A DNA stretch of 64,000 bases, taken from the NCBI RefSeq assembly GCF_009455635.1, contig NZ_QPER01000002.1, forward strand, positions 372,001 to 436,000, in the 5' to 3' direction. The position numbers and the translations under genes are program-made. The notes beneath the pieces are model-generated. The model was not told the DNA's origin and searched no databases. It saw nothing but the letters and a program-made list of their open reading frames with translations. This document shows positions 6,838 to 52,282 of this stretch, piece by piece (position 1 is the stretch's first letter; every line of letters begins with the position of its first letter). Origin of the DNA: Paraburkholderia agricolaris. Its GTDB lineage: Bacteria; Pseudomonadota; Gammaproteobacteria; Burkholderiales; Burkholderiaceae.

Positions 6838-7016
6838 GTCGGGATACACCCGGCGATCAGGTTTGACAGCCTGTAGTCAGAAACCGCACACCCGCTCAGG
6901 CGGGGCGTGCGTCTACCTCTGCACGTCTATATTCCAATGGGCGGGCCTTGGTAGGGGAGCCGCAAGGCTCGCCGGTATGTTTCTGACCCGGTCTGTCAAC
7001 CCTACTTCGTGCCCGC
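6838..7016 (+). ncRNA. structured leader RNA with nested long-range stems (C4-like candidate)
   Basis: Several stems can be read directly. CGGG/CCCG forms a hairpin at 6840-6852. GGTTTGACAG (6860-6869) pairs with CTGTCAACC (6993-7001), and inside it TCAGAAAC (6877-6884) pairs perfectly with GTTTCTGA (6979-6986). Within that closing helix lie CCCGC-TCAG-GCGGG (6891-6904), CGTGC/GCACG (6906-6925) and GAGCC-GCAA-GGCTC (6957-6970), the last with a GNRA tetraloop. GCGGGC (6941-6946) can also pair with GCCCGC (7011-7016), and CCCGCTCA occurs twice (6891, 7012). A perfect -10 box precedes it and a small gene follows at 7074. The architecture recalls C4 antisense RNAs in front of phage ash/icd genes; that match is inference, and a riboswitch-like or other leader is possible. 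Confidence 0.6.
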
Positions 7017-7073
7017 TCACCCACGTTTCCAGCGAGTGTCGGGCGATCCGAGAAGTAACAGGGAGATCGCGCC

Positions 7074-49441: not shown

Positions 49442-50569
49442 GTGCCAGGCTTACTTCCCGATGTCGACCGCGAGGGACTCCTCGAGTATTCGGTCGTGTA
49501 CACCGACCGATCAATCAATCATATGTCGCAGCTTTTTCAAGGAGTCGTGCGCGATATTTCCGGCGCCCTGAAAAAGGTCTACAACGCGAAGTCGGCGGTT
49601 ATCGTCCCGGGCAGCGGGACATTCGGCATGGAAGCCGTCGCCCGGCAGTTTGCGACGGGCAAGAAGTGTCTGGTCATCCGCAATGGCTGGTTCAGTTTCC
49701 GCTGGTCGCAGATTTTCGACATGGGCAGCATTCCATCTGAATCGATCGTGTTGAAGGCGCGTCCGGTCGAACAAGGAAGGCAGGCCGCATATGCACCGCC
49801 GCCGATCGAAGAAGTGGTCGCCGCGATCAAGGAGAACAAGCCGGATCTGGTCTTTGCACCGCATGTCGAAACGGCCTCCGGGATGATGCTGCCTGATGCC
49901 TATTTGCGTGCCGTGTCCGACGCTGTTCACGCCGTCGGCGGCATGTTTGTACTGGATTGCATCGCTTCCGGCACGGTCTGGGTCGATATGCAGACTAGTG
50001 GTGTCGATGTCCTGATCAGCGCACCGCAAAAAGGGTGGAGCGCGTCACCGTGCTGCGCACTCGTCATGCTCAGCCCTCTTGCCCGCGAAAGAATCGACGC
50101 GACAACCAGCACCAGTTTCGCTTGCGATCTTCGCAAATGGCTGCAGATCATGGAGGCCTACGAGAACGGCGGGTTCGCGTACCACGCCACGATGCCCACG
50201 GACAGTCTCGCGACGCTGCGCGACGTCATTAAGGAAACCGAGGCATATGGCTTCGACAAAGTGAAAGCGGAGCAGCTTGAACTCGGCACGCGCGTTCGCT
50301 CACTCTTGACGGCCAAAGGTTTCCGAAGCGTGGCGGCGGAAGGTTTTCAGGCTCCAGGCGTGGTGGTCAGCTACACGGACGATGACGGCATACGATCCGG
50401 CAAGAAATTCGCCGATGCCGGTTTGCAGATCGCGCCCGGCGTTCCCCTTCAATGCGACGAGCCTGAAGACTTCAAGACTTTCCGCATCGGACTATTTGGC
50501 CTCGACAAACTGCATGATGTCGAAGGCGCGGTCGCCAGGCTCACCAAGGCATTGGACAGTATTCTTTAG
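49442..50569 (+). CDS. class V PLP aminotransferase (alanine-glyoxylate aminotransferase-like)
   Basis: A 375-residue fold-type I PLP enzyme. The GTG start has GGAGG 5 bases upstream and begins PGLLPDVDREGLLEYSVVYT. The PLP region shows VPGSGTFGMEAVARQFATGK, FVLDCIASGTVWVDMQTSGV (the Asp that contacts the pyridine N) and ISAPQKGWSASPCC with the Schiff-base Lys in QKGW. Members move an amino group from Ala, Ser or phosphoserine-type donors to glyoxylate or similar acceptors. It stands alone, with an AraC remnant behind it, so its pathway cannot be deduced. Confidence 0.9.
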   Translation: MPGLLPDVDREGLLEYSVVYTDRSINHMSQLFQGVVRDISGALKKVYNAKSAVIVPGSGTFGMEAVARQFATGKKCLVIRNGWFSFRWSQIFDMGSIPSESIVLKARPVEQGRQAAYAPPPIEEVVAAIKENKPDLVFAPHVETASGMMLPDAYLRAVSDAVHAVGGMFVLDCIASGTVWVDMQTSGVDVLISAPQKGWSASPCCALVMLSPLARERIDATTSTSFACDLRKWLQIMEAYENGGFAYHATMPTDSLATLRDVIKETEAYGFDKVKAEQLELGTRVRSLLTAKGFRSVAAEGFQAPGVVVSYTDDDGIRSGKKFADAGLQIAPGVPLQCDEPEDFKTFRIGLFGLDKLHDVEGAVARLTKALDSIL

Positions 50570-50639
50570 CGCCTTTTTCCGGCGCATGTGCGCATGGCTC
50601 GCCCTCGCAAGCGCATCGACCGGAGGGCCCCGGAACCTG

Positions 50640-50779
50640 TGGGAATAGCTATGCGCACGCTTCGGTCTTTGCCGCCATTCGACAAACGACAACCCCGTGT
50701 CGTGCCGAAAAACGCGGGACAGCGTGCGACGGCTGGCGCACAGTACGCCCACGACGTCCGCCACCTGGTATTTCCGCAA
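50640..50779 (-). pseudogene. AraC-family regulator fragment
   Basis: The minus strand reads KYQVADVVGVLCASRRTLSR followed by VFRHDTGLSFVEWRQRPKRA, the C-terminal double helix-turn-helix of AraC regulators. Just upstream, across a stop codon, QLRQRLTVGEAMF may continue the same relic. The rest of the regulator is gone. It is a decayed copy lying between the aminotransferase and the efflux leader. Confidence 0.6.
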
Positions 50780-50892
50780 TCAGAACATTGCTTCGCCTAC
50801 GGTAAGCCGTTGCCGAAGTTGACAGTGTGACGTCGAGTGAAGGATGAGCGCGATGCGCCGGACCCCTATGCTTTGACAGGCAATCTCGGCAG

Positions 50893-50922
50893 TTGACATC
50901 GCCGAAGCATACCGCCTAACAT
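50893..50922 (+). promoter_or_regulatory. promoter of the efflux leader transcript
   Basis: A perfect TTGACA at 50893-50898, an 18-bp spacer and TAACAT at 50917-50922. Transcription would start near 50929, about 23 bases before the leader peptide ATG. Confidence 0.7.
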
Positions 50923-50951
50923 CGCTCAGGATCACCAGGAGAAAATTCAGC

Positions 50952-51002
50952 ATGAATGCCACGTTTATCATCGTACTAGGAAGTCGGCGCATGGTCCGGT
51001 AA
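50952..51002 (+). CDS. 16-residue leader peptide MNATFIIVLGSRRMVR
   Basis: A complete short frame: AGGAG at 50937-50941, ATG at 50952, 16 codons, TAA at 51000. The hydrophobic stretch FIIVLG recalls the IFVI-type stalling peptides that sense macrolides. The coding region overlaps the 5' arm of a hairpin (50986-50994), and a strong intrinsic terminator follows 23 bases after the stop. The next gene is a Bcr/CflA efflux pump. Together this is the layout of translation-coupled attenuation: ribosomes held up early in the peptide would leave the antiterminator free to form. Peptide expression and antibiotic link are inference. Confidence 0.7.
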   Translation: MNATFIIVLGSRRMVR

Positions 51003-51027
51003 CGGCACCTGGCCGTCCCCATGCGCC
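50986..51027 (+). promoter_or_regulatory. candidate antiterminator stem
   Basis: GGCGCATGG (50986-50994) pairs perfectly with CCATGCGCC (51019-51027), enclosing a second perfect hairpin ACGGC-ACCTG-GCCGT (51002-51016). Its 3' arm shares bases 51025-51027 with the terminator stem, so the two structures compete. Confidence 0.62.
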
Positions 51028-51053
51028 CCCGACAAGTTCGGGGGCTTTTTTTT
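51025..51053 (+). terminator. intrinsic terminator inside the efflux leader
   Basis: GCCCCCGA (51025-51032), a 5-base loop and TCGGGGGC (51038-51045) form a perfect 8-bp stem followed directly by eight T residues. It lies between the leader peptide and the efflux gene start at 51083, so it would stop most transcripts unless the competing stem forms. Confidence 0.88.
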
Positions 51054-51082
51054 GCCCTGCGCGAAATTGCTTTCGATCGGAA

Positions 51083-52282
51083 ATGCCGATGACTTCAACA
51101 CGACCGCTTCCCACGCTCTCCACGCTGATTCTGCTGTGTGCGCTCTCTGTACTGCCATTGAGCATATTCCTGCCTTCGCTGCCGAACATTGCGATGGATT
51201 TTCACGCCGACTACGCGCTCGTGAGCTTGTCGCTGGCAGGATATGCAACCGTTGCCGCCGTGCTGGAACTGGTCATGGGGCCGCTGTCCGATCGCTTCGG
51301 GCGGCGGCCAATCGTGTTGACCAGCCTGACCGTATTCGTGGTCGGGTCGCTCGGCTGCGCACTGGCGGGCAATATCTGGGCCTTTCTGGCTTTCCGTTTG
51401 CTTCAGGCTCCGATCACCTCCTGTTATCCGGTGTCGATGGCCGCCATCAGGGATATGACCGGGAAGGAGGGGGCCGCAAGCCGGATCGGCTATGCCGCGA
51501 TGGCAGCGGCGCTCGCCCCAATGCTGGGCCCGACGGTCGGCGGCGTTATCGACGAAACCAGTGGCTGGCGAGCAATCTTCTGGGGTCTCGCGCTTGCCGG
51601 CATAGCTTTGTTTGCCGTGTGCTGGTTCCGCCTGGGTGAGACCAACAAGTATCCATCGGACACCATCAGGCAGCAGTTTCGGGCCTATCCCGCGCTTATC
51701 CACGAACGTCGCTTCTGGGCCTACGCGCTGTGCATGGCGTTCTCAACGGGTACGTTCTATGCCTTTCTGGCCGGTGCTCCATTGGCCGCGAAAACGGCGT
51801 TCGATGTACCACCGGCAACGCTAGGTTTGTACATGGGCACCATCACCGCCGGTTTCGTGCTCGGCAGCTTCCTGTCGGGTCGCTACGCCAGCCGCTATCC
51901 GCTCGCTACGACCATCACCGTGGGACGTGTCGTTGCTTGTGCCGGTCCGTTGATCGGCTTGATGCTCTTCTTCGTCGGAGCCAGGCATGCAATAGCACTG
52001 TTCGGCCCTTGCATGCTAGTCGGCGTCGGTAACGGCCTGTCAAATCCGTGCGCCCATGCCGGAGCGCTCTCAGTGCGGCCGGAGCTGGCGGGAAGTGCAT
52101 CCGGGTTGGTCGGCGCGATGACCATTGCCGGCGGCTCCGCCCTTTCCTCGATGACGGGAGCCGTATTGACGGAGGGCAACGCAGCTTACGCGCCGCTTTG
52201 CCTGATGCTGTTCTCCTCCGTGATTGCGATGTTGGCCGCGTCATATGTGCGCATGTTGGACCGGCACGAGGCGTATCGATGA
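51083..52282 (+). CDS. Bcr/CflA-family drug efflux MFS transporter
   Basis: A 399-residue transporter of the Bcr/CflA (DHA1) branch with 12 predicted membrane segments. The opening LILLCALSVLPLSIFLPSLP followed by NIAMDFHADYALVSLSLAGY is typical, motif A is GPLSDRFGRRPIVL, and motif C-like ALAPMLGPTVGGVIDE sits in segment 5. It pumps drugs or amphipathic compounds out with proton antiport; relatives export bicyclomycin, chloramphenicol or sulfonamides. Start is ATG 51083 or ATG 51089. It sits behind the leader peptide and terminator, so its expression is probably raised when translation is disturbed. Substrate unknown. Confidence 0.9.
   Translation: MPMTSTRPLPTLSTLILLCALSVLPLSIFLPSLPNIAMDFHADYALVSLSLAGYATVAAVLELVMGPLSDRFGRRPIVLTSLTVFVVGSLGCALAGNIWAFLAFRLLQAPITSCYPVSMAAIRDMTGKEGAASRIGYAAMAAALAPMLGPTVGGVIDETSGWRAIFWGLALAGIALFAVCWFRLGETNKYPSDTIRQQFRAYPALIHERRFWAYALCMAFSTGTFYAFLAGAPLAAKTAFDVPPATLGLYMGTITAGFVLGSFLSGRYASRYPLATTITVGRVVACAGPLIGLMLFFVGARHAIALFGPCMLVGVGNGLSNPCAHAGALSVRPELAGSASGLVGAMTIAGGSALSSMTGAVLTEGNAAYAPLCLMLFSSVIAMLAASYVRMLDRHEAYR

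Follow-up and report, generated by a model that had tools for sequence, protein, structure and literature searches.

The ilvBNC attenuator of Corynebacterium glutamicum (Corynebacterium ilvB-II motif) is described with a 15-amino-acid leader peptide, IlvL (MTIIRLVVVTARRLP), and GUA as its control codon (PMC11857589, PMC10272879). One GCC there belongs to both the antiterminator and the terminator and can pair with a GGC on either side, with mutational support, and such an overlap is argued by the authors to allow fast, low-energy switching (PMC11857589). In Caulobacter, the ilvL leader of ilvIH/ilvBN is described as carrying Ile and Val codons in tandem and as attenuating transcription in a translation-dependent way (PMC4117421). 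In Bacillus subtilis, bmrB-bmrCD combines a leader peptide with ribosome-mediated transcription attenuation of a transporter (PMC4191407).

We analyzed a leader in the window (the whole 64,000-nucleotide stretch of DNA) that resembles each of these systems in part. The GCC boundary is the same in the window and in C. glutamicum: the GGC at 36 to 38 and the GCC at 76 to 78 of the latter (PMC11857589) become leader nucleotides 35 to 37 and 75 to 77 if the IlvL ATG lies at +2, as the published text seems to imply, in agreement with Burkholderia; the window counterparts are 35 to 37 and 74 to 76. We liken the two by arrangement and not by homology, the C. glutamicum element being described in Corynebacterium, where it controls acetohydroxy acid synthase genes instead of a transporter and has a longer terminator with the partner at 111 to 113. 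The Caulobacter leader, likened by description and not by sequence, also differs in serving a biosynthetic operon (PMC4117421), and bmrCD is an ABC transporter induced by ribosome-targeting antibiotics (PMC4191407). IlvL-type attenuators control a gene of branched-chain amino acid biosynthesis, whereas a Bcr/CflA transporter lies downstream in the window; homologous elements do precede acetolactate synthase. We conclude that this is a branched-chain amino acid attenuator of a known kind with an unexpected gene behind it. We consider it likely that it is a ribosome-mediated transcription attenuator that senses the charging of Ile, Val, and Leu tRNAs and controls the transporter.

Anatomy of the leader

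The original prediction had described a promoter, a ribosome site, a 16-codon frame, two hairpins, and a T8 terminator, all of which lie where it had put them, and we confirm that this anatomy is real. The features are as follows.

50893 to 50922, plus strand: sigma-70-type promoter, with TTGACA at 50893, an 18-nucleotide spacer, and TAACAT ending at 50922
50937 to 50941, plus strand: Shine-Dalgarno sequence AGGAG of the leader frame
50952 to 51002, plus strand: leader peptide frame MNATFIIVLGSRRMVR and stop, 16 codons, predicted to be translated
50967 to 50978, plus strand: putative control codons Ile6 ATC, Ile7 ATC, Val8 GTA, and Leu9 CTA; an Ile/Val/Leu block is kept in relatives
50986 to 50994, plus strand: antiterminator 5' arm GGCGCATGG, within the last leader codons; the alphaproteobacterial counterpart helix covaries
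51002 to 51016, plus strand: inner hairpin ACGGC-ACCTG-GCCGT, inside the antiterminator loop; the alphaproteobacterial counterpart helix covaries
51019 to 51027, plus strand: antiterminator 3' arm CCATGCGCC, fully complementary to GGCGCATGG at 50986 to 50994
51025 to 51027, plus strand: boundary GCC common to both hairpins, pairing with 50986 to 50988 (antiterminator) or 51043 to 51045 (terminator)
51025 to 51053, plus strand: intrinsic terminator GCCCCCGA-CAAGT-TCGGGGGC, with an 8-bp stem at 51025 to 51045 and T8 at 51046 to 51053
51083 to 52282, plus strand: gene for a Bcr/CflA-family MFS transporter of 399 amino acids

In support of the predicted mutual exclusion, the two hairpins overlap at exactly 51025 to 51027; the 3-nucleotide overlap is also present in the aligned betaproteobacterial set. 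As expected of IlvL-type attenuators, the intrinsic terminator stands before the structural gene. The cmlA leader also places a Bcr/CflA-related exporter behind a leader peptide, as here, and differs in that it works by translational attenuation induced by chloramphenicol, with no terminator switch. A translational attenuator of the ermC or catA type, in which a hairpin hides the downstream gene's ribosome site, was rejected for the window: the second hairpin ends at 51045 and is followed by T8, and neither hairpin includes the pump ATG at 51083.

One promoter-like site was found in 50600 to 51300, compared with 0.3 in shuffled sequences, and one intrinsic terminator at the locus, compared with 0.4. 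Folding of 50980 to 51053 beats all 200 shuffles (z, -3.3). The longer stretch, 50930 to 51053, gives a z of only -2.2, with 2 of 200 shuffles equally good, and at minimum energy it forms the terminator and not the first hairpin, so support from folding and motif statistics of the single sequence is moderate. Such statistics would suit an accident, in which the terminator of an upstream gene happens to follow a chance short frame. Against this, the leader has its own promoter between it and the upstream gene, and the element is conserved in two bacterial classes with synonymous codon change and compensatory changes in the stems. It is this conservation, and not the single-sequence statistics, that rules out a chance origin and refutes the accident, to which we assign almost no probability.

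Two other features of the window were recorded. Between an aminotransferase gene and the leader, a short frame on the minus strand (50492 to 50779) looks by eye like the end of an AraC-type DNA-binding domain and is perhaps a gene remnant. A C4 antisense RNA (RF01695, a phage immunity RNA family; 59.4 bits) is found at 6933 to 7024 on the plus strand, suggesting that a prophage or its remnant may be located close to the start of the window.

Recurrence of the leader before two gene families

A search with the pump sequence gave 47 loci, and leaders were inspected at 37 of these (L004 to L040; L041 to L050 were left out). A leader frame that ends in the antiterminator arm, a complementary arm, and a terminator precede the pump at 28 of the 37 loci, with atypical peptides at two of the 28 (L024, METNLNRIARPVARRRKVR; L025, MKPAVVGGEAWRSDR). 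The nine loci counted as lacking the leader are L006, with an upstream sequence of only 171 nucleotides; two from Mesorhizobium (L007 and L031), where a TPP riboswitch replaces it; two from Burkholderia (L008 and L014), where it is rearranged or degenerate; and four from Comamonadaceae (L032, L035, L037, and L040), where it is absent. These four carry another conserved stretch upstream of the pump, TTGACTCCTGTTG...ACCC...ACGAG....

Burkholderia pump leaders read MKTACFIVVVHRRRVR and MKAAFIIVVVHRRRVR. Most are preceded by CAGGAG, and a TTGAC with a TAACAT- or CTACCAT-like -10 element is likewise present. We built a covariance model, R1, from 16 betaproteobacterial leaders. Under the stricter filters used for all searches over more than 40 genomes, with which misses are possible, R1 matches 37 of 65 genomes in Burkholderia and 4 of 144 in the window's genus. 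The pump is downstream at 28 of the 30 Burkholderia R1 loci fetched (L143 being a partial match) and at all four from the window's genus. It is absent at L146 and L149, each an orphan leader in a Burkholderia genome whose pump has been displaced or lost; the genome of L146 has its pump elsewhere (L008), with a T run and no leader. An order-wide R1 search matched 7 of 300 genomes at E values up to 0.01, six of them weakly (25.6 to 29.1 bits) and with no adjoining pump or synthase, and we took these six as chance matches. The anatomy at 28 of 37 orthologue loci and the R1 matches in 37 of 65 genomes of Burkholderia give good support to a ribosome-mediated transcription attenuator.

Alphaproteobacterial versions of the leader score above the cut-off of Rfam family RF02502 (“Rhizobiales sRNA Atu_C8”); the window matches it weakly, at 28.1 bits (E, 6.5e-4), under the gathering score of 50. 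In Rhizobium's family, 239 of 247 genomes have an RF02502 match, 234 of them over the cut-off; a class-wide draw gave 2 of 142 genomes, one of which was the centre genome. The best 30 of the loci from Rhizobium's family all lie upstream of acetolactate synthase. Of twenty further stretches, picked to include second copies and lower-ranked matches, 18 are followed by the synthase and 2 by the pump. Among 62 above-cut-off loci with the next gene identified, a set that is not random because 13 of its genomes had been selected by their pump loci, acetolactate synthase follows at 53 and the pump at 9. No conserved neighbor genes of the pump were seen by eye in the frame listing of the alphaproteobacterial loci.

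This leader of alphaproteobacterial ilvI is like that of the window in its length, Ile/Val/Leu block, inner hairpin, and terminator, and in its arms, GCGCATGGG and CCCATGCGC; in alphaproteobacteria it also precedes the same pump clade. It differs in having a seemingly leaderless frame and stems that stop short of the terminator. Judged by the shared features, RF02502 and the window leader are homologous elements. At the alphaproteobacterial loci, a TTGAC and -10-like pair directly precedes the ATG, and the RF02502 match begins 2 nucleotides after it (at L034, ATG at 2241 and match at 2243), which together suggest a leaderless frame; betaproteobacterial leaders, unlike these, carry AGGAG. A leaderless frame is also described for rnTrpL of S. 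meliloti (PMC7298713, PMC10117765). The most diverged member seen is the leader of a Roseibium synthase (L068, 1499 to 1616), with largely different yet complementary stems (GCGCGCC and GGCGCGC).

The Rfam label raises the alternative that the RNA is a trans-acting sRNA that merely precedes the pump, with attenuation secondary or absent. Attenuator RNAs can act in trans, as is described for rnTrpL of S. meliloti (PMC7298713, PMC10117765), and RF02502 is catalogued as an sRNA; our literature search on the family found a single benchmark mention in the text available (PMC5913331). However, apart from the orphans L146 and L149, one of two gene families lies directly downstream wherever the next gene was identified, the frame is under coding constraint, and the 3' end is an intrinsic terminator within the transcription unit. 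We therefore regard a trans-acting sRNA as very improbable.

In the window's genome, neither an Ile/Val/Leu leader nor a terminator is present in the 450 nucleotides upstream of the closest acetolactate synthase gene (L171, matching the query piece at 67%; three more distant homologues lay outside this comparison), and the pump leader is the only R1 match. Based on these two observations, the attenuator here seems to serve the transporter alone.

Pump leaders (FIIVL and FIVVV) keep the same Ile/Val/Leu block as synthase leaders, which read MKNFAVILVVGRRMGRMV, MKISIVLIVVGRRMGRMV, MKTVLIVVGPRMGRVL, and similar. We compared 22 distinct 16-codon leaders from Burkholderia (of 28 distinct leaders, excluding 4 from the window's genus and 2 with 17 codons). 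All 22 have Val at codons 8 and 9, via four and three synonymous codons, respectively; codon 7 is Ile in 18, Phe in 2, Val in 1, and Asn in 1; and at codon 10, 17 leaders have Val, 2 have Ile, and Leu, Ala, and Phe occur once each. Likewise, each of the 26 distinct 18-codon synthase leaders (of 31, five of other lengths being excluded) places one Leu and one Ile at codons 7 and 8, followed by Val at both codon 9 and codon 10. The rare codon GTA is strongly over-represented: the Burkholderia leaders use it for 40 of their 64 Val codons, versus 12 of 340 in 14 Burkholderia pump genes; since the leaders are related, we give no exact P value. The block in the window leader is ATC ATC GTA CTA, and in five window genes GTA accounts for 13 of 150 Val codons and CTA for 6 of 226 Leu codons. 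Attenuation leaders are described as typically, though not universally, biased in their codons (PMC1183508). The frame is, by its sequence, rich in Ile/Val/Leu control codons and under coding constraint, and it is predicted to be translated. Together, the synthase-associated copies and the conserved Ile/Val/Leu codons point to sensing of branched-chain amino acid tRNA charging.

The original prediction had suggested ribosome-targeting antibiotics as the trigger. In that case, an antibiotic, or a drug acting together with the nascent peptide, would stall ribosomes at codons 7 to 10 and induce the pump, as in ermC or bmrCD. The hydrophobic run before the Arg residues resembles known arrest peptides, and any general slowing of translation could act on the switch too. 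That drug transporters can be controlled in this way is established by bmrB-bmrCD, as described (PMC4191407). This trigger is nevertheless unsupported at this locus: leaders of this type are followed by acetolactate synthase at 53 of the 62 RF02502 loci examined, positions 7 and 10 exchange mostly among Ile, Val, and Leu, and the Val codons are skewed to GTA. We consider antibiotic sensing possible yet improbable, and less likely than a branched-chain amino acid attenuator; as a whole, the original interpretation is partly supported.

Hairpin exclusion and covariation of the stems

In the branched-chain amino acid attenuator, a ribosome supplied with plentiful Ile, Val, and Leu would reach the stop codon and cover the arm at 50986 to 50994. 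With that arm covered, the terminator (51025 to 51053) would form and the transporter would be off. When branched-chain aminoacyl-tRNA is short, the ribosome would wait at codons 6 to 8, and the free arm would pair with 51019 to 51027, withdrawing the GCC at 51025 to 51027 from the base of the terminator and turning the transporter on. We infer both the signal and this direction of switching.

As a check, the original prediction had proposed conservation of the peptide and covariation of the stems in relatives. The peptide and stems do recur before the pump; covariation was found in alphaproteobacteria and not in the betaproteobacterial alignment (A1), which holds no compensatory pairs because its sequences are too uniform. 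Across 38 alphaproteobacterial sequences, 96.9% of cells in three helices are paired, and 10 pairs are changed on both sides, with 42 such cells, a score reached in 0 of 500 shuffles. A combined alignment (A2) misplaced the 5' arm and was rejected, so covariation was counted on the 38 alphaproteobacterial sequences only.

Assuming that the leading edge of the ribosome lies 11 to 15 nucleotides past the first P-site base, the arm is free with the ribosome at codons 6 to 8 and covered past codons 8 to 9, in support of the original logic that a ribosome held near codons 7 to 8 leaves the antiterminator arm free. At the widest footprint, the arm is already blocked when the ribosome stalls at codon 8 or later. 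In our model of the window, the shared terminator pairs have a probability of 0.10 to 0.42 with the P site at codons 4 to 5, 0.30 to 0.82 at codon 6, and 0.99 to 1.0 from codon 9. Equilibrium folding in Burkholderia lowers their mean only to about 0.83 to 0.90, versus 1.0 (31 of 34 sequences in the betaproteobacterial set fitted the terminator pattern). In the alphaproteobacterial form, the antiterminator arms end about 5 to 10 nucleotides before the terminator, with no direct overlap; in 7 of 9 sequences modeled, the terminator stays at 0.90 or higher at every ribosome position, and prefix folding gave no clear alternative structure. A GGGA:TCCY helix, present in 87% of 43 aligned sequences, was rejected as the alphaproteobacterial antiterminator, since it would lie under a stalled ribosome. 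For this form, the idea that plain 3-bp exclusion works universally is unsupported. Based on these models, three-base exclusion appears well founded for the window but weak at equilibrium for Burkholderia, and how the alphaproteobacterial relatives exclude their terminator is unexplained.

The transporter and its possible role

As the original prediction had held, the gene at 51083 to 52282 belongs to the Bcr/CflA family, passing the TIGR00710 subfamily cut-off (232.2 versus 200.9 bits); the closest pump, in P. fungorum, is 98% identical. The original statement that no such attenuator is known for Bcr/CflA pumps is uncontradicted by our literature search, which found no paper describing a leader upstream of any Bcr/CflA gene from this clade and had most subscription papers outside its scope. 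A tree of 34 pump rows, built with a quick method, with several open forks, and rooted on two long outgroup rows, needs six changes of regulator type. From this tree, we tentatively read the association of leader and clade as old, with a TPP riboswitch having taken over in the Mesorhizobium pair and loss in Comamonadaceae. The riboswitches lie immediately upstream of the pump, at 2297 to 2413 (L007) and 2306 to 2422 (L031) of the two Mesorhizobium loci, and the L031 pump frame contains one in-frame stop.

Residue 27 of the window's transporter aligns with residue 34 of MdfA, which we take to be Asp34, the first-helix acidic residue important for drug/proton exchange. The site is Ser, Asn, or Gly in 30 of 30 clade rows; in distant rows it is Asp or Glu in 5 of 9 and Ser or a gap in the other 4. 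EmrD also has no acid there, so its absence is not decisive. Taken together, the TPP riboswitch in Mesorhizobium and the missing membrane acidic residue make the name “drug pump” doubtful. The switch on branched-chain amino acid supply hints that the supposed drug pump belongs to amino acid metabolism, and the transporter would then serve branched-chain amino acid metabolism rather than general drug export. Against the branched-chain amino acid model stand the folding results for Burkholderia and the alphaproteobacterial form, the arm blockage at the widest ribosome footprint, the atypical leaders L024 and L025, and the lack of such a leader at L171; moreover, an efflux pump induced by starvation has no obvious physiological reason.

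TPP is the cofactor of acetolactate synthase. We tentatively suggest, with slightly more doubt than belief, that the transporter is under a starvation sensor, mostly the branched-chain amino acid attenuator and in Mesorhizobium the TPP riboswitch, and that it may move a keto acid or other pathway metabolite or expel an antimetabolite that blocks the pathway or the charging of Ile, Val, and Leu tRNAs. If the antimetabolite version is true, the poison would be detected via the shortage that it causes. For RF02502, a catalogued “sRNA” label gives way to a testable function as an Ile/Val/Leu leader-peptide attenuator. Across two bacterial classes, what is likely an amino acid starvation switch stands before a transporter annotated for multidrug efflux, and the regulators offer a concrete lead to the real substrate of this orphan transporter clade.
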